A DNA stretch of 61,561 nucleotides from positions 1-61,561 of the forward strand of contig CALWVQ010000079.1 of assembly GCA_944385025.1 (NCBI GenBank), given 5' to 3'. The notes under the pieces were generated by a model, which saw only the letters and a list, made by a program, of their open reading frames with translations, was not told the origin of the DNA and did not search any database. Of the stretch, positions 1 through 10,050 are shown piece after piece (positions within the stretch are counted from its first letter, which is position 1; every line of letters begins with the position of its first letter). Position numbers and translations under genes: made by a program. The DNA comes from an uncultured Eubacterium sp. (GTDB lineage: Bacteria > Bacillota > Clostridia > Oscillospirales > Acutalibacteraceae).

Positions 1-342
1 AAACTTGATAAAGAAACAGACGAAATTAAGTCCCAGATTGCAAAACAGAAAGACTTTGATAATCTCCTTGTTGAAAAGGAAAATATCATATCAGATACAC
101 AAAAGTATATAGAAAATCTGCTGTCAGGAGGCGAGTGGAACGATATGTTCTATCGCAGACTGATTGATAAAATAGTTGTGTACAAGGACAGAAAAATGGA
201 TATACACCTGAGTATGCTCCCTGAAAAATGGCAAGGTCAGATTATAAAAGGCAAGCGTGAAATAGAGGCTTACGAGGCTGAAAGTGCTGCTTGTGATGCC
301 TCCACACCTATATCTGTCAGCAAACCTTTTAATTCAGCATAG
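1..342 (+). CDS. Large serine recombinase, C-terminal end only (cut by window edge)
   Basis: The frame is open from base 1 and encodes 113 residues ending at a TAG. It starts in a lysine/glutamate-rich, probably coiled-coil stretch, followed by the motif LIDKIVVYKDRKMDIHL, which resembles the end of the C-terminal domain of large serine recombinases (integrases/transposases of conjugative or skin-like elements). The N-terminal catalytic serine domain and zinc ribbon would lie left of the window. The last 13 codons (about 303-342) are the antisense of a cotJC gene on the other strand, so the original recombinase end has been replaced by host sequence at the insertion junction. Family identity is likely; the exact subfamily cannot be judged from this tail. 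Confidence 0.8.
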   Translation, partial: KLDKETDEIKSQIAKQKDFDNLLVEKENIISDTQKYIENLLSGGEWNDMFYRRLIDKIVVYKDRKMDIHLSMLPEKWQGQIIKGKREIEAYEAESAACDASTPISVSKPFNSA

Positions 343-491
343 GGCATTGAATAACGCTGGCTTAAATATCTTAAGCTTGCTCCCAGCTCGCCGTCCGGGC
401 CTCCGTATTGACTGATTATGATGGAGGCAGCCTTTGGGTTTGGATGTTTTATATTAATCGGATACTGTAATTTCTTTACGTAATTAAACAT
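270..491 (-). pseudogene. cotJC: cotJC (spore coat, manganese-catalase family), N-terminal fragment cut by insertion
   Basis: Reading leftwards from the ATG at 491, residues 1-64 match the start of CotJC proteins, including YVKKLQYPINI, QYGGPDGELGASLRYLSQRY and LLTDIG. CotJC is a di-manganese catalase-like protein of the spore coat, about 190 residues long. After residue 64 (near base 300) the family sequence, normally continuing EELAHLE, is replaced by nine unrelated residues and a stop, all lying inside the recombinase gene. The metal-binding helices are therefore missing. The start is supported by an AAGGAG site 8 bases upstream. There is no cotJA or cotJB next to it. The gene may be a true pseudogene, or split by an excisable element; the sequence alone cannot decide. 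Confidence 0.8.
294..306. other. Inferred junction (att site) between recombinase element and cotJC
   Basis: To the right of about base 300 the - strand encodes CotJC residues 1-64; to the left it does not, while the + strand frame becomes typical recombinase sequence. The crossover core should therefore lie in or next to the bases reading ggtgtggagg on the - strand. Only one end of the element is in the window, so the duplicated core cannot be delimited. The location is inferred from where protein similarity ends. Confidence 0.55.
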
Positions 492-517: not shown

Positions 518-546
518 TATTCTATGAAAAAAGGATTTTTGTGTTA
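518..546 (-). promoter_or_regulatory. Candidate sporulation (sigma-K-like) promoter of cotJC
   Basis: On the - strand, AACA (542-545) is followed by 15 bases and CATAGAATA (518-526). This fits the sigma-K pattern of an AC-containing -35 and CATANNNTA -10. It sits about 27 bases before the cotJC start. The same AACA-N15-CATA arrangement is found before the cysteine-rich gene at 37672. No sigma-A-like promoter was noticed here. Confidence 0.4.
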
Positions 547-3890: not shown

Positions 3891-4790
3891 TTGAAAAAAA
3901 TAATTGAACTTTGTAAAGAAATGAATTGCCATTACCAGCTTAACGAGCCAATGAGCAAGCATACCACGTTTAAAATAGGCGGCGAAGCCTCTTTAGTTGT
4001 TTATCCCGAAAGCAGAGAGCAAATCAGCAGGCTTGTAAAAACTGCACGGGATGAAAATATACGGCTTTTGCCCATGGGCAACGGCTCAAATATGTTGGTA
4101 AGCGACGACGGAATTGATGCCTGTGTAATGATTTTAGATGACCATTACAGTGAAATCAAGTTGATAGACGAAGAAACAATCTACGCCGATTCGGGCGCTC
4201 TGCTTATAAGACTTTGCAGATTTGCGTATGAGCACGGATTAACAGGATTGGAATTTGCCTATGGTATTCCGGGTTCCTGCGGCGGCGGAGCCTTTATGAA
4301 CGCCGGTGCTTACGGCGGCGACATGAAGGATGTGCTTTACAGGTGCGACCATATAGATAAAGACGGCAATGAAGGTTTTTTAGAAAATAGTGACTTAAAA
4401 CTTTCTTACCGCCATTCGGCATATTATGAAAACGACTGTATAATAACGGGGCTTTATTTGAAATTGAAAAAAGGCAGTAAAGACGAAATCAAGGCAAAAA
4501 TGGACGACTTGATGAACCGCAGAAAAACAAAACAGCCTTTGGAGTTTGCGTCGGCAGGCTCAACCTTTAAACGCCCGCAAGGATATTTTGCAGGCGCGCT
4601 CATTGAGCAGTGCGGTCTTAAAGGCAAAAATGTAGGAGATGCGCAGGTGAGCGAAAAACACGCTGGATTTGTCATCAACAGAGGCAATGCAACTTGTAAG
4701 GATGTTCTTGAACTTTGTGATGAATGTGCCAAAACTGTTTTTGAAAAAACAGGTGTTAAGCTGGAAATGGAAATACGTGTTACGAAGTAA
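3891..4790 (+). CDS. murB: UDP-N-acetylenolpyruvoylglucosamine reductase
   Basis: A 299-residue FAD enzyme that reduces enolpyruvyl-UDP-GlcNAc to UDP-N-acetylmuramate with NADPH, the second committed step of peptidoglycan precursor synthesis in the cytoplasm. Visible features are HTTFKIGG near the start, the FAD loop GNGSNMLV (63-70), GIPGSCGGGAFMNAGAYG (about 125-142) and SAGSTFKRP carrying the catalytic serine. The length fits the short MurB type. Translation seems to start at TTG 3891, 10 bases after glcK, with only a weak GGTGA site, so expression may depend on coupling to glcK. Confidence 0.95.
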   Translation: MKKIIELCKEMNCHYQLNEPMSKHTTFKIGGEASLVVYPESREQISRLVKTARDENIRLLPMGNGSNMLVSDDGIDACVMILDDHYSEIKLIDEETIYADSGALLIRLCRFAYEHGLTGLEFAYGIPGSCGGGAFMNAGAYGGDMKDVLYRCDHIDKDGNEGFLENSDLKLSYRHSAYYENDCIITGLYLKLKKGSKDEIKAKMDDLMNRRKTKQPLEFASAGSTFKRPQGYFAGALIEQCGLKGKNVGDAQVSEKHAGFVINRGNATCKDVLELCDECAKTVFEKTGVKLEMEIRVTK

Positions 4791-4804
4791 TGAGGTAATA
4801 AGCT

Positions 4805-5677
4805 ATGGAGAATAAAGAAAAAGAATTAGTAGTTTTAACCGGTGTCAGCGGAGCAGGAAAGTCTACTGCAATGGGCTTTCTTGAAGATGTAGGGTATTAC
4901 TGTATAGATAATATGCCTCCGGAACTTATATCTACATTTATAGGACTTTTGGCAAACGGCAGCGGTTATGACCGAGTTGCACTTGTAACAGATGTGCGTT
5001 CAAACCGTATGTTTGAAAAGCTTCTTGAAAGTATTAAAAGTATAGAGCCTTACGGCTACAATGTAAGGTGCATTTATCTTGATGTTGACGATAAGGAAGC
5101 ACTCAAAAGGTACAAACTTACCCGCAGAAAGCATCCTTTTGCAGATAGATTTAATGGAAATATCAAGCAGGCAATTACGTATGAAAAGGAGCTTTTGGCT
5201 CCGCTGAGAGCACTTGCCGATCATATAATTGATACAACGGATACAGATAATCAAAAACTTAGAGCGAGACTGGCTCAAATTCTTTTGGGTAACGATAGTG
5301 ATGTTATGAATATTCACTGTGTTTCCTTTGGATTTAAGCACGGTATTCCTACAGAGGCGGATTTTGTAGTTGACGTGCGCTGTCTGCCAAATCCGTATTG
5401 GGTTGATGAATTAAAGAATAAAACAGGTCTTGATAAAGAAGTCAGGGACTATGTGTTTTCTTTTGACCAGTCAAATCAACTGCTTGCAAAGCTTATTGAC
5501 CTTTTGGATTTTTTAAATCCCCTTTACATAAAAGAGGGCAAAAGTCAAATAGTTTTTGCAATCGGTTGCACAGGAGGAAATCACAGAAGCGTTGCTTTTG
5601 CCGAAGCGCTTAAGGAACACTTTTCAAAAAAATGGGATAACGTATCAGTTAATCACAGAGATATAGACAGAAAGTAG
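4805..5677 (+). CDS. rapZ: RapZ/YvcJ-family nucleotide-binding RNase adapter
   Basis: A 290-residue protein with Walker A GVSGAGKS at 13-20 and the C-terminal RapZ region (DVRCLPNPYW, GCTGGNHRSV). In Escherichia coli RapZ binds the small RNA GlmZ and guides RNase E; in Bacillus the homologue YvcJ is a nucleotide-hydrolysing protein with effects on competence, and its RNA role is less clear. It lies 14 bases after murB and 10 bases before whiA. In many Firmicutes yvcK separates this gene from whiA; here it is absent. Confidence 0.93.
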   Translation: MENKEKELVVLTGVSGAGKSTAMGFLEDVGYYCIDNMPPELISTFIGLLANGSGYDRVALVTDVRSNRMFEKLLESIKSIEPYGYNVRCIYLDVDDKEALKRYKLTRRKHPFADRFNGNIKQAITYEKELLAPLRALADHIIDTTDTDNQKLRARLAQILLGNDSDVMNIHCVSFGFKHGIPTEADFVVDVRCLPNPYWVDELKNKTGLDKEVRDYVFSFDQSNQLLAKLIDLLDFLNPLYIKEGKSQIVFAIGCTGGNHRSVAFAEALKEHFSKKWDNVSVNHRDIDRK

Positions 5678-5687
5678 TTATGGGTAA

Positions 5688-6572
5688 ATGTCATTTTCAC
5701 AGGAAGTAAAAAACGAACTTTTAGAAATTGAATATGAAAAAAGCTGTTGTGAAAAAGCACTTCTTTACGGGCTTTGTATATTTTCAAAAAGTTTTTCTGT
5801 TTTAGGAATAAGCATACAAACGGAAAATGAACGTATTGCCCGTCTTTTTAGAAAACTGATAAAAAAATATTGTAATGTTAACTGCTTTATCAAGTCGTCC
5901 CCAAAGGGAAGAAGTTTTTCTGTAAATATTGATGAAAAAAGCCAGTGCGACAAGATTTTAGGCGTTTTCGGTCACAATGAAGTGGGAAGCCTGAAAATCA
6001 ATCATTCAAATTTTGACTGTACCGACTGTGTAAATGCATTTTTAGCAGGGGCATTTTTAGCCTGCGGAACTGTAAGCGACCCTAAAAAAGACTATCATTT
6101 GGAATTTACCGTGCCCTTTTCTAATCTTTCAAAAAGTCTTGTGACATTTTTGGAAGAGATGGAACTTACTCCTAAATTATCAAACAGAAAAGGCTACAAT
6201 ATTGTTTATTTTAAAGGAAGTCAGGCGATTGAGGATTGTTTGTATTTAATGGGCGCTTCTTCCGCAATGTTTGAAATGATGAATATTGAAATTGTAAAAG
6301 ATTTCAGAAATAAAGCTAACAGAACGGCAAACTGTGAAGCGGCAAATATTGAAAGAACGGTAAAAGCCAGCTTCGCCCATATTGAAGCTATTGAAAAAAT
6401 CGAAAAGATTAAAGGTCTTGATTATTTAAAAAAAGATCTTAAGGAAATGGCTGTTTTAAGAAAGGAAAATCCCGAACTTTCATTGTCTGAACTATCTAAA
6501 CTAAGCGGGCTGTCCCGTTCGGGAGTTAATCATCGGCTTAACAAAATTCTTGAAATAGCACAAAATTTGTAA
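5688..6572 (+). CDS. whiA: WhiA-family DNA-binding protein
   Basis: A 294-residue WhiA/YvcL protein. It combines an N-terminal LAGLIDADG homing-endonuclease-like fold without nuclease function with a C-terminal helix-turn-helix (LSLSELSKLSGLSRSGVNHR, about 263-282). In Bacillus it affects cell division and chromosome segregation; in Streptomyces it is a sporulation regulator. It has a weak ribosome site (GGGTA), and a short out-of-frame ATG at 5680 overlaps the start, which suggests modest or coupled translation after rapZ. Confidence 0.93.
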   Translation: MSFSQEVKNELLEIEYEKSCCEKALLYGLCIFSKSFSVLGISIQTENERIARLFRKLIKKYCNVNCFIKSSPKGRSFSVNIDEKSQCDKILGVFGHNEVGSLKINHSNFDCTDCVNAFLAGAFLACGTVSDPKKDYHLEFTVPFSNLSKSLVTFLEEMELTPKLSNRKGYNIVYFKGSQAIEDCLYLMGASSAMFEMMNIEIVKDFRNKANRTANCEAANIERTVKASFAHIEAIEKIEKIKGLDYLKKDLKEMAVLRKENPELSLSELSKLSGLSRSGVNHRLNKILEIAQNL

Positions 6573-6588
6573 AGGATGAAAAAGTAAT

Positions 6589-10050
<3,462 letters not shown>

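Follow-up and report, generated by a model that had tools for sequence, protein, structure and literature searches.

The window analysed here is the whole of contig C79, a 61,561-nucleotide stretch of DNA from an uncultured Eubacterium sp. whose draft genome comprises 1.65 Mb in 81 contigs, and it opens with the first part of the sporulation gene cotJC, which breaks off at the edge of a recombinase-bearing element. Our analysis indicates, with a probability of roughly 0.8, that cotJC is interrupted by a skin-like element (so called after skin, the element in sigK), which its recombinase would excise in the mother cell, restoring the gene. The insertion itself had been proposed in a preliminary description of the window, and it is borne out by the homology of the recombinase C-terminus in the window and by the 3′ half of cotJC, which we located on a second contig, C60. 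Excision and its timing in the mother cell we infer by analogy with known systems. A wider reading also appears likely, in which cotJC genes across the order carry one to three dedicated elements at three fixed sites over conserved motifs, and programmed excision in the mother cell would have to clear all of them before CotJC could be produced.

The window holds the first 64 codons of cotJC on the strand opposite to the recombinase gene (Table 1), and the break after residue 64 given in the preliminary description agrees with the extent of the PF05067 match and with the end of the recombinase gene, which overlaps cotJC antisense by ~43 bp. The cotJC frame departs from its family after DIGVE and remains open in element sequence as far as position 270. 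A PF05067 search of the genome returned two places only, one in the window and one at the start of contig C60, where the 3′ part of the gene matches profile positions 59–197 (E 2e-28); both parts pass the 27-bit cut-off, with scores of 61.9 and 99. As in skin-like elements, the gene is split and both of its parts are present in the genome. The 3′ part, whose absence had been named beforehand as the observation that would speak against an element, opens C60, with 23 bp of non-cotJC sequence followed by GTGGAGG and then by the remainder of the gene. It had been expected to begin with EELAHLE and reads EELGHLE, and its closest named match is the Oscillospiraceae metagenome-assembled genome (MAG) SIG609 (90%). 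Similarly, the repeat core had been predicted as ggtgtggagg; the C60 side reads ggcgtggagg, so the 7 bp GTGGAGG are common to both ends but the full 10 bp are not.

In-silico joining of the two parts at GTGGAGG produced a single uninterrupted CotJC of 199 aa, in which the core lies inside the codons of a (T/V)EELGHLE motif. When 34 junctions from this genome and its relatives were scored in this manner, 29 were open; of the remainder, four are middle pieces that extend into the neighbouring element and one was miscut; the rows of our own genome and of locus L153, whose shared core is 8 bases long, were anchored one codon off, and the site-C rows G106c and G149c were cut off-position. The inverted-repeat match between element ends averaged 13.6 over the 34 junctions against 10.4, and 15 of 480 mismatched pairs of element ends from the same site reached at least 14 matches; taken alone, the 14/18 match of the window's element is suggestive and not decisive. 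Since the window and C60 are contig ends of an 81-contig draft, two unrelated contigs might each end in cotJC by chance. We give this almost no weight, as the same design recurs in the single-contig genomes G054, G152, G173, G007, G247 and G279 and in named records not marked as MAGs, namely Papillibacter cinnamivorans DSM 12816 and Pseudoflavonifractor sp. An44.

A site-specific recombinase stands at the element edge, recognized in the window by homology of its C-terminus and present in intact form in relatives. By itself, the 113-aa window frame matched no Pfam or NCBIfam family, and it shares 49% identity over 112 aa (E 1e-38) with a same-genus recombinase located at the same cotJC site (site B, one of three recurrent sites described below). 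The only Resolvase match in the genome is a recombinase N-terminus at the very end of contig C68. Because the C68 N-terminus (73%) and the window C-terminus (49%) both find their best match in the site-B recombinases of G021, a genome of the same genus, they probably represent the two ends of a single gene with its middle part missing, and we infer that C68 belongs to the window element. All five of the relatives' recombinases that were scanned combine Resolvase, Recombinase and zinc-ribbon domains; our genome holds the N-terminal Resolvase part only.

Table 1. Coordinates of the cotJC, element and recombinase features.
Feature	Location	Strand	Basis or remark
5′ part of cotJC, codons 1–64	window 300..491	-	PF05067 profile 1–65, E 5e-18
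GTGGAGG core shared with C60, where cotJC meets the element (attL)	window 299..305	-	other copy at C60 bases 24–30 (attR)
Element-end inverted-repeat arm	window 290..307	-	14/18 match to the reverse complement of the C60 element end
Last 113 aa of a large serine recombinase of clade B, gene truncated at the contig start	window 1..342	+	homology to a same-genus recombinase
-10-like box CATAGAATA upstream of cotJC	window 518..526	-	recurs in relatives
54-aa open reading frame just upstream of the C68 recombinase start	L005:7936-8097 (L005 = contig C68)		

To place the split gene in context, we surveyed 300 genomes of the family, our own included, of which 229 had a PF05067 match; 100 others, picked for weak or multiple matches or for belonging to the same genus, were examined closely, and the remaining 128 were left out. 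The figures for site-ending genomes, for the order survey, for the recombinase profile hits and for the named loci were read by hand. A cotJC piece ending at one of three sites, at profile positions ~33 (site A), ~65 (site B) and ~150 (site C), was found in 86 of the 100 genomes (48/50 and 38/50, the latter set including some single pieces at contig ends), and the two exceptions in the first set are G231, where cotJC is intact, and G142, where it ends at 160, outside the site windows. Among the internal ends of partial matches from the family and order surveys, 237 of 263 fall in site windows that span 32% of positions and that were set after seeing the data, with paralogue rows and own-family repeats left out of the 263. 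Many pairs of pieces lie on one contig, on the same strand and in order, also in single-contig genomes, and three or four pieces per gene occur in G247 (sites A and B), G127 and G106 (sites A, B and C), the last with four pieces in order on contig C23, and outside the family in G327 and G333. The interruption of cotJC described for the window thus has counterparts in relatives, yet the single element of the preliminary description becomes up to three elements per gene there. The sequences shared between element and gene fall in the codons of QYGGPxGE at site A, IGTEEL at site B and AAEQ at site C, motifs that we take to carry the metal ligands of the manganese catalase.

Beyond the family, an order survey of 127 genomes (8 of them from the own family) returned partial matches ending at these sites in 14 other families. 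The 80 named loci comprised 51 intact and 29 broken cotJC genes (three of the broken ones begin at the end of a contig), and one of these recombinases was present in 0 of the 51 intact and in 17 of the 29 broken loci. These loci were fetched with a 3′-half query, so that 5′-only cases cannot appear; many extend less than 10 kb to each side, and hits of the fused recombinase–cotJC query frame G247_45374 to cotJC were ignored. In P. cinnamivorans DSM 12816 and Pseudoflavonifractor sp. An44, the cotJC halves are separated by 5.7 kb and 7.9 kb, respectively.

The recombinases sort largely by insertion site. When 27 recombinases were placed in a tree, those of each site formed a single branch (support at least 100/99), and the site label changed twice, compared with a mean of 9.8 changes for shuffled labels; G106_11476, a fourth lineage with 21–28% identity to the others, was left out of the tree, and a second recombinase-like frame of G293 was dropped. 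A strict rule of one clade for one site was rejected, as G106_11476-like recombinases of the fourth lineage occur at site B in P. cinnamivorans and in two other named loci. The recombinases of P. cinnamivorans, L145 and L146 are closest to G106_11476, and that of P. cinnamivorans lies at site B. In G106 itself, the fourth-lineage recombinase shares the site-B interruption with a clade-B recombinase, and either could serve the site. Searched over the 300 genomes, a clade-A profile gave 42 hits at E ≤1e-120, followed by a gap to 1e-78, and 38 of these have a cotJC piece no more than 1.7 kb away (24/28 when the 14 rows used to build the profile are set aside). For clade B, 20 of the 26 hits at E ≤1e-130 lie within ~2.6 kb of a cotJC piece (13/18 with the 8 profile rows set aside).

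Selection on the separated pieces bears directly on whether the split gene is still in use. For six pairs of related genomes that carry elements at site A (five pairs congeneric), the ratio of nonsynonymous to synonymous divergence (dN/dS) was 0.00–0.075 for the short 5′ piece and 0.00–0.042 for the 3′ piece, the synonymous divergence (dS) of the halves ranging from 0.25 to saturation, with one 3′ pair saturated at silent sites. For the recombinases, dN/dS was 0.09–0.24 in six pairs. In the four pairs in which both genes were available and unsaturated, recombinase dS values of 0.33, 0.76, 0.99 and 1.21 compare with 0.25–0.30, 0.74–0.91, 0.85–1.13 and 0.81–1.41 for the halves. Given the low dN/dS of the halves and the similar dS of the recombinase, cotJC appears to have stayed under selection while split; on the simplest reading of these sequence comparisons, the element dates back to the common ancestor, and from then on both the recombinase and the interrupted gene have remained useful.

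These values argue against an ordinary stable insertion, in which cotJC would be a favoured attachment site, the gene dead, and excision a matter of element transfer only. Mobile elements do use the site, since clade-A relatives occur in IMG/VR viral contigs, where 22 of 80 kept loci hold a cotJC site-A piece, mostly adjoining the recombinase; viral-called contigs and small elements therefore have the site in common. A few cotJC pieces also contain internal stops, as a dead gene would. Against this stand the purifying selection on both halves, the matching divergence of the recombinase, and the retention of pieces even in genes that are cut two or three times (G106, G247, G327 and G333). Stable gene death fits these data poorly and programmed excision fits them well, and we regard a stable insertion as quite unlikely. 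Conservation of both halves would also be expected if each were translated on its own and the two polypeptides combined into a functional protein, the DNA staying unjoined; with a site-A 5′ part of only ~33 codons that ends in element-specific residues, and with shared DNA cores that would be left without a role, this is highly improbable.

We therefore return to developmental excision, for which the purifying selection on the halves, the matching recombinase dS, the SpoIVA of the host (SpoIVA_ATPase match, E 2e-119) and the same design in family and order provide indirect support. Serine recombinases join attL and attR precisely. In the proposed mechanism, the large serine recombinase at the element edge would recombine attL with attR at GTGGAGG, releasing the element as a circle and restoring cotJC, which encodes a spore-coat protein resembling manganese catalases, as one frame of 199 codons. 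On the model of skin, gin and yin, excision would occur in the mother cell during sporulation; as the mother-cell chromosome is not inherited, the element would persist in the germ line without loss of the coat protein. The same scheme would operate in relatives at three sites, served mainly by three recombinase clades, and some genes would go through it two or three times.

A low rate of excision in any cell, induced as in phages or by stress and with CotJC made by the excised minority, would dispense with a sporulation programme. The relatives in viral contigs could be read in this way, and excised forms of yin are described at all culture time points in the cited part of PMC10747680. The ~2.3-kb elements of G119, G279 and G213 speak against it, as they contain little besides the recombinase (among the frames viewed, only two further ones of ~160 aa and ~75 aa), and no phage genes were noticed in the small elements by eye, with no phage library run. 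We consider such low-rate excision unlikely.

The sigma-K-like promoter of the preliminary description is present as the -10-like box of Table 1, which we take to be of sigma-E/sigma-K type. The same CATAGAATA occurs in L109 and L113, and CATACAATA in G293, at about the same distance upstream of cotJC (3 of 7 relatives). More generally, a CATA(G/C)AATA box lies at a similar distance in four of eight upstream regions, our own included, and it was not seen upstream of cotJC in L108, L111, L115 and G231. The shared box is found only near the own genus. The gene upstream of the window's cotJC (595-1803) appears glycosyltransferase-like by eye, and cotJC does not lie in a cotJA-cotJB-cotJC operon here. 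Elsewhere, the end of a cotJB-like gene, for which we take a PWPW motif as the mark, precedes 25 of 26 cotJC 5′ pieces, the exception being G293 of the same genus.

Several observations weigh against programmed excision or against its generality. The assembly lacks the central part of our genome's recombinase as well as the rest of the element. Sigma-E/K-like sites (CATA...T) lie upstream of 12 of 29 recombinases, compared with a shuffled mean of 11.1, and CATA...TA occurs upstream of cotJC family-wide in 2/57 and 2/27 cases (shuffled means 0.8 and 0.3, maxima 4 and 2); the weakness of the latter scan we attribute to the position of cotJC behind the cotJB-like gene. A search of viral contigs with one exact pattern of joined element ends (attP) gave 0 matches. 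Site B is served by more than one recombinase lineage (L143, L145 and L146). Four of the 42 clade-A recombinases were not seen at cotJC, those of G002, G090, G100 and G137, and three of these that have no adjacent cotJC piece map to G137:C4:52161-53543, G090:C29:214280-215644 and G002:C5:12569-13975. Six of the 26 clade-B hits were not seen at cotJC, namely a second copy located deeper in the G021 element and those of G006, G026, G036, G079 and G136, the last five being cases in which contig ends or unexamined matches limit the reading. Finally, in G282 and G401 the cotJC 5′ piece lies downstream of the 3′ piece on one strand, unlike a simple insertion. The pieces are 40 kb apart in G282 (G282:C50:40895-41086 and 80992-81345) and 675 kb apart in the single-contig genome G401 (G401:C1:198620-198805 and 873266-873640); if both assemblies are right, recombination would rebuild cotJC on the chromosome's other arc.

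Conserved small open reading frames accompany clade-B and some clade-A recombinases. Frames related to the 54-aa frame on C68 lie upstream of clade-B recombinases in other elements, and direct matches to it were found in G215 and G021, more weakly in L174, and in one viral contig (L215) fetched with a clade-A query. Three of the small frames, the 54-aa one included, were searched and had no Pfam match. The small frame upstream of clade-B recombinases is a candidate partner protein or accessory factor, perhaps in the role of a recombination directionality factor. Positions 1-7872 of C68, upstream of the recombinase start, carry xanthine-dehydrogenase-like genes, a binding-protein transporter set and a MobA-like gene; the xanthine dehydrogenase, binding-protein and MobA-like products had no match in the other fetched loci, and these may be cargo or flanking host genes.

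Several relatives show unusual arrangements. The cotJC element of G271 (L077, G271:C4:68500-80700) carries a Cas9 gene, identified with Pfam, at 4521-8495 on the minus strand, followed by frames of ~292, 106 and 223 aa, the first two of Cas1 and Cas2 size by eye only; L077 probably holds a CRISPR system carried in a skin-like element, with Cas1 and Cas2 putative. In G247 (L083, C1), a site-B recombinase frame runs stop-free into the cotJC 3′ part as a 683-aa frame. Two clade-B recombinases, 98% identical, occupy one site-B interruption in G021:C4 (L099-L100), as if from tandem elements. In L158 and L181, the cotJC 3′ part starts from residue 29, and a clade-A-like recombinase lies downstream of the gene and not in front of it.

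If programmed excision is correct, many seemingly truncated cotJC genes of gut bacteria are not truncated, and cotJC would be a bacterial gene in pieces, edited at the DNA level once per spore. As a large natural series, the cotJC elements would lend themselves to questions such as what leads elements to lodge in spore genes, how multiple excisions are kept in step and what determines the site choice of a recombinase, and P. cinnamivorans DSM 12816 and Pseudoflavonifractor sp. An44 are named records open to direct testing. Among the matches listed, the open-licence literature held no account of cotJC interrupted by an element.

Known spore-gene elements provide the closest comparison. In the cited part of PMC10747680, the interrupted genes are sigK, spsM, spoVFB, gerE and yabG. 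The skin element in sigK of B. subtilis and C. difficile likewise combines, as portrayed there, a split spore gene, a serine recombinase located in the element by the 5′ part and a short att repeat, in a host that sporulates (PMC10747680); the host of the window element is predicted to do so from its SpoIVA. It differs in that cotJC encodes a coat enzyme and not a sigma factor, that cotJC has up to three elements at three fixed sites, and that cotJC excision is predicted. The gin element in gerE of B. cereus ATCC10987 lacks phage genes and encodes a recombinase, GirC (58 kDa), with a tiny partner, GirX (6.5 kDa) (PMC5595907). No phage genes were noticed by eye in the small cotJC elements, GirC is similar in size to the cotJC recombinases, and GirX recalls the small frame upstream of clade-B recombinases. 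Unlike the cotJC elements, gin has another target and three recombinase genes, and GirX and the cotJC small frames show no sign of a common family. Elements inside a spore gene, as in cotJC, also include yin in yabG of C. botulinum, vfbin in spoVFB and SP-beta in spsM; yin is called unique to one strain in the excerpt concerned (PMC10747680), whereas cotJC elements are spread over family and order. Further afield, the interruption elements of heterocyst-forming cyanobacteria are excised in the differentiating cell and, as in cotJC, may number several per gene: the portion of PMC4874684 cited here counts 87 interrupted genes, 10 of them with several elements (nifD of Rivularia has four), and assigns about half of the xis genes to the serine recombinases. 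The hosts and genes are unrelated to the cotJC system. The spore-gene elements named in these cited passages occur one per gene, whereas cotJC presents three fixed sites, at least four recombinase lineages and up to four ordered pieces, across the family and beyond.
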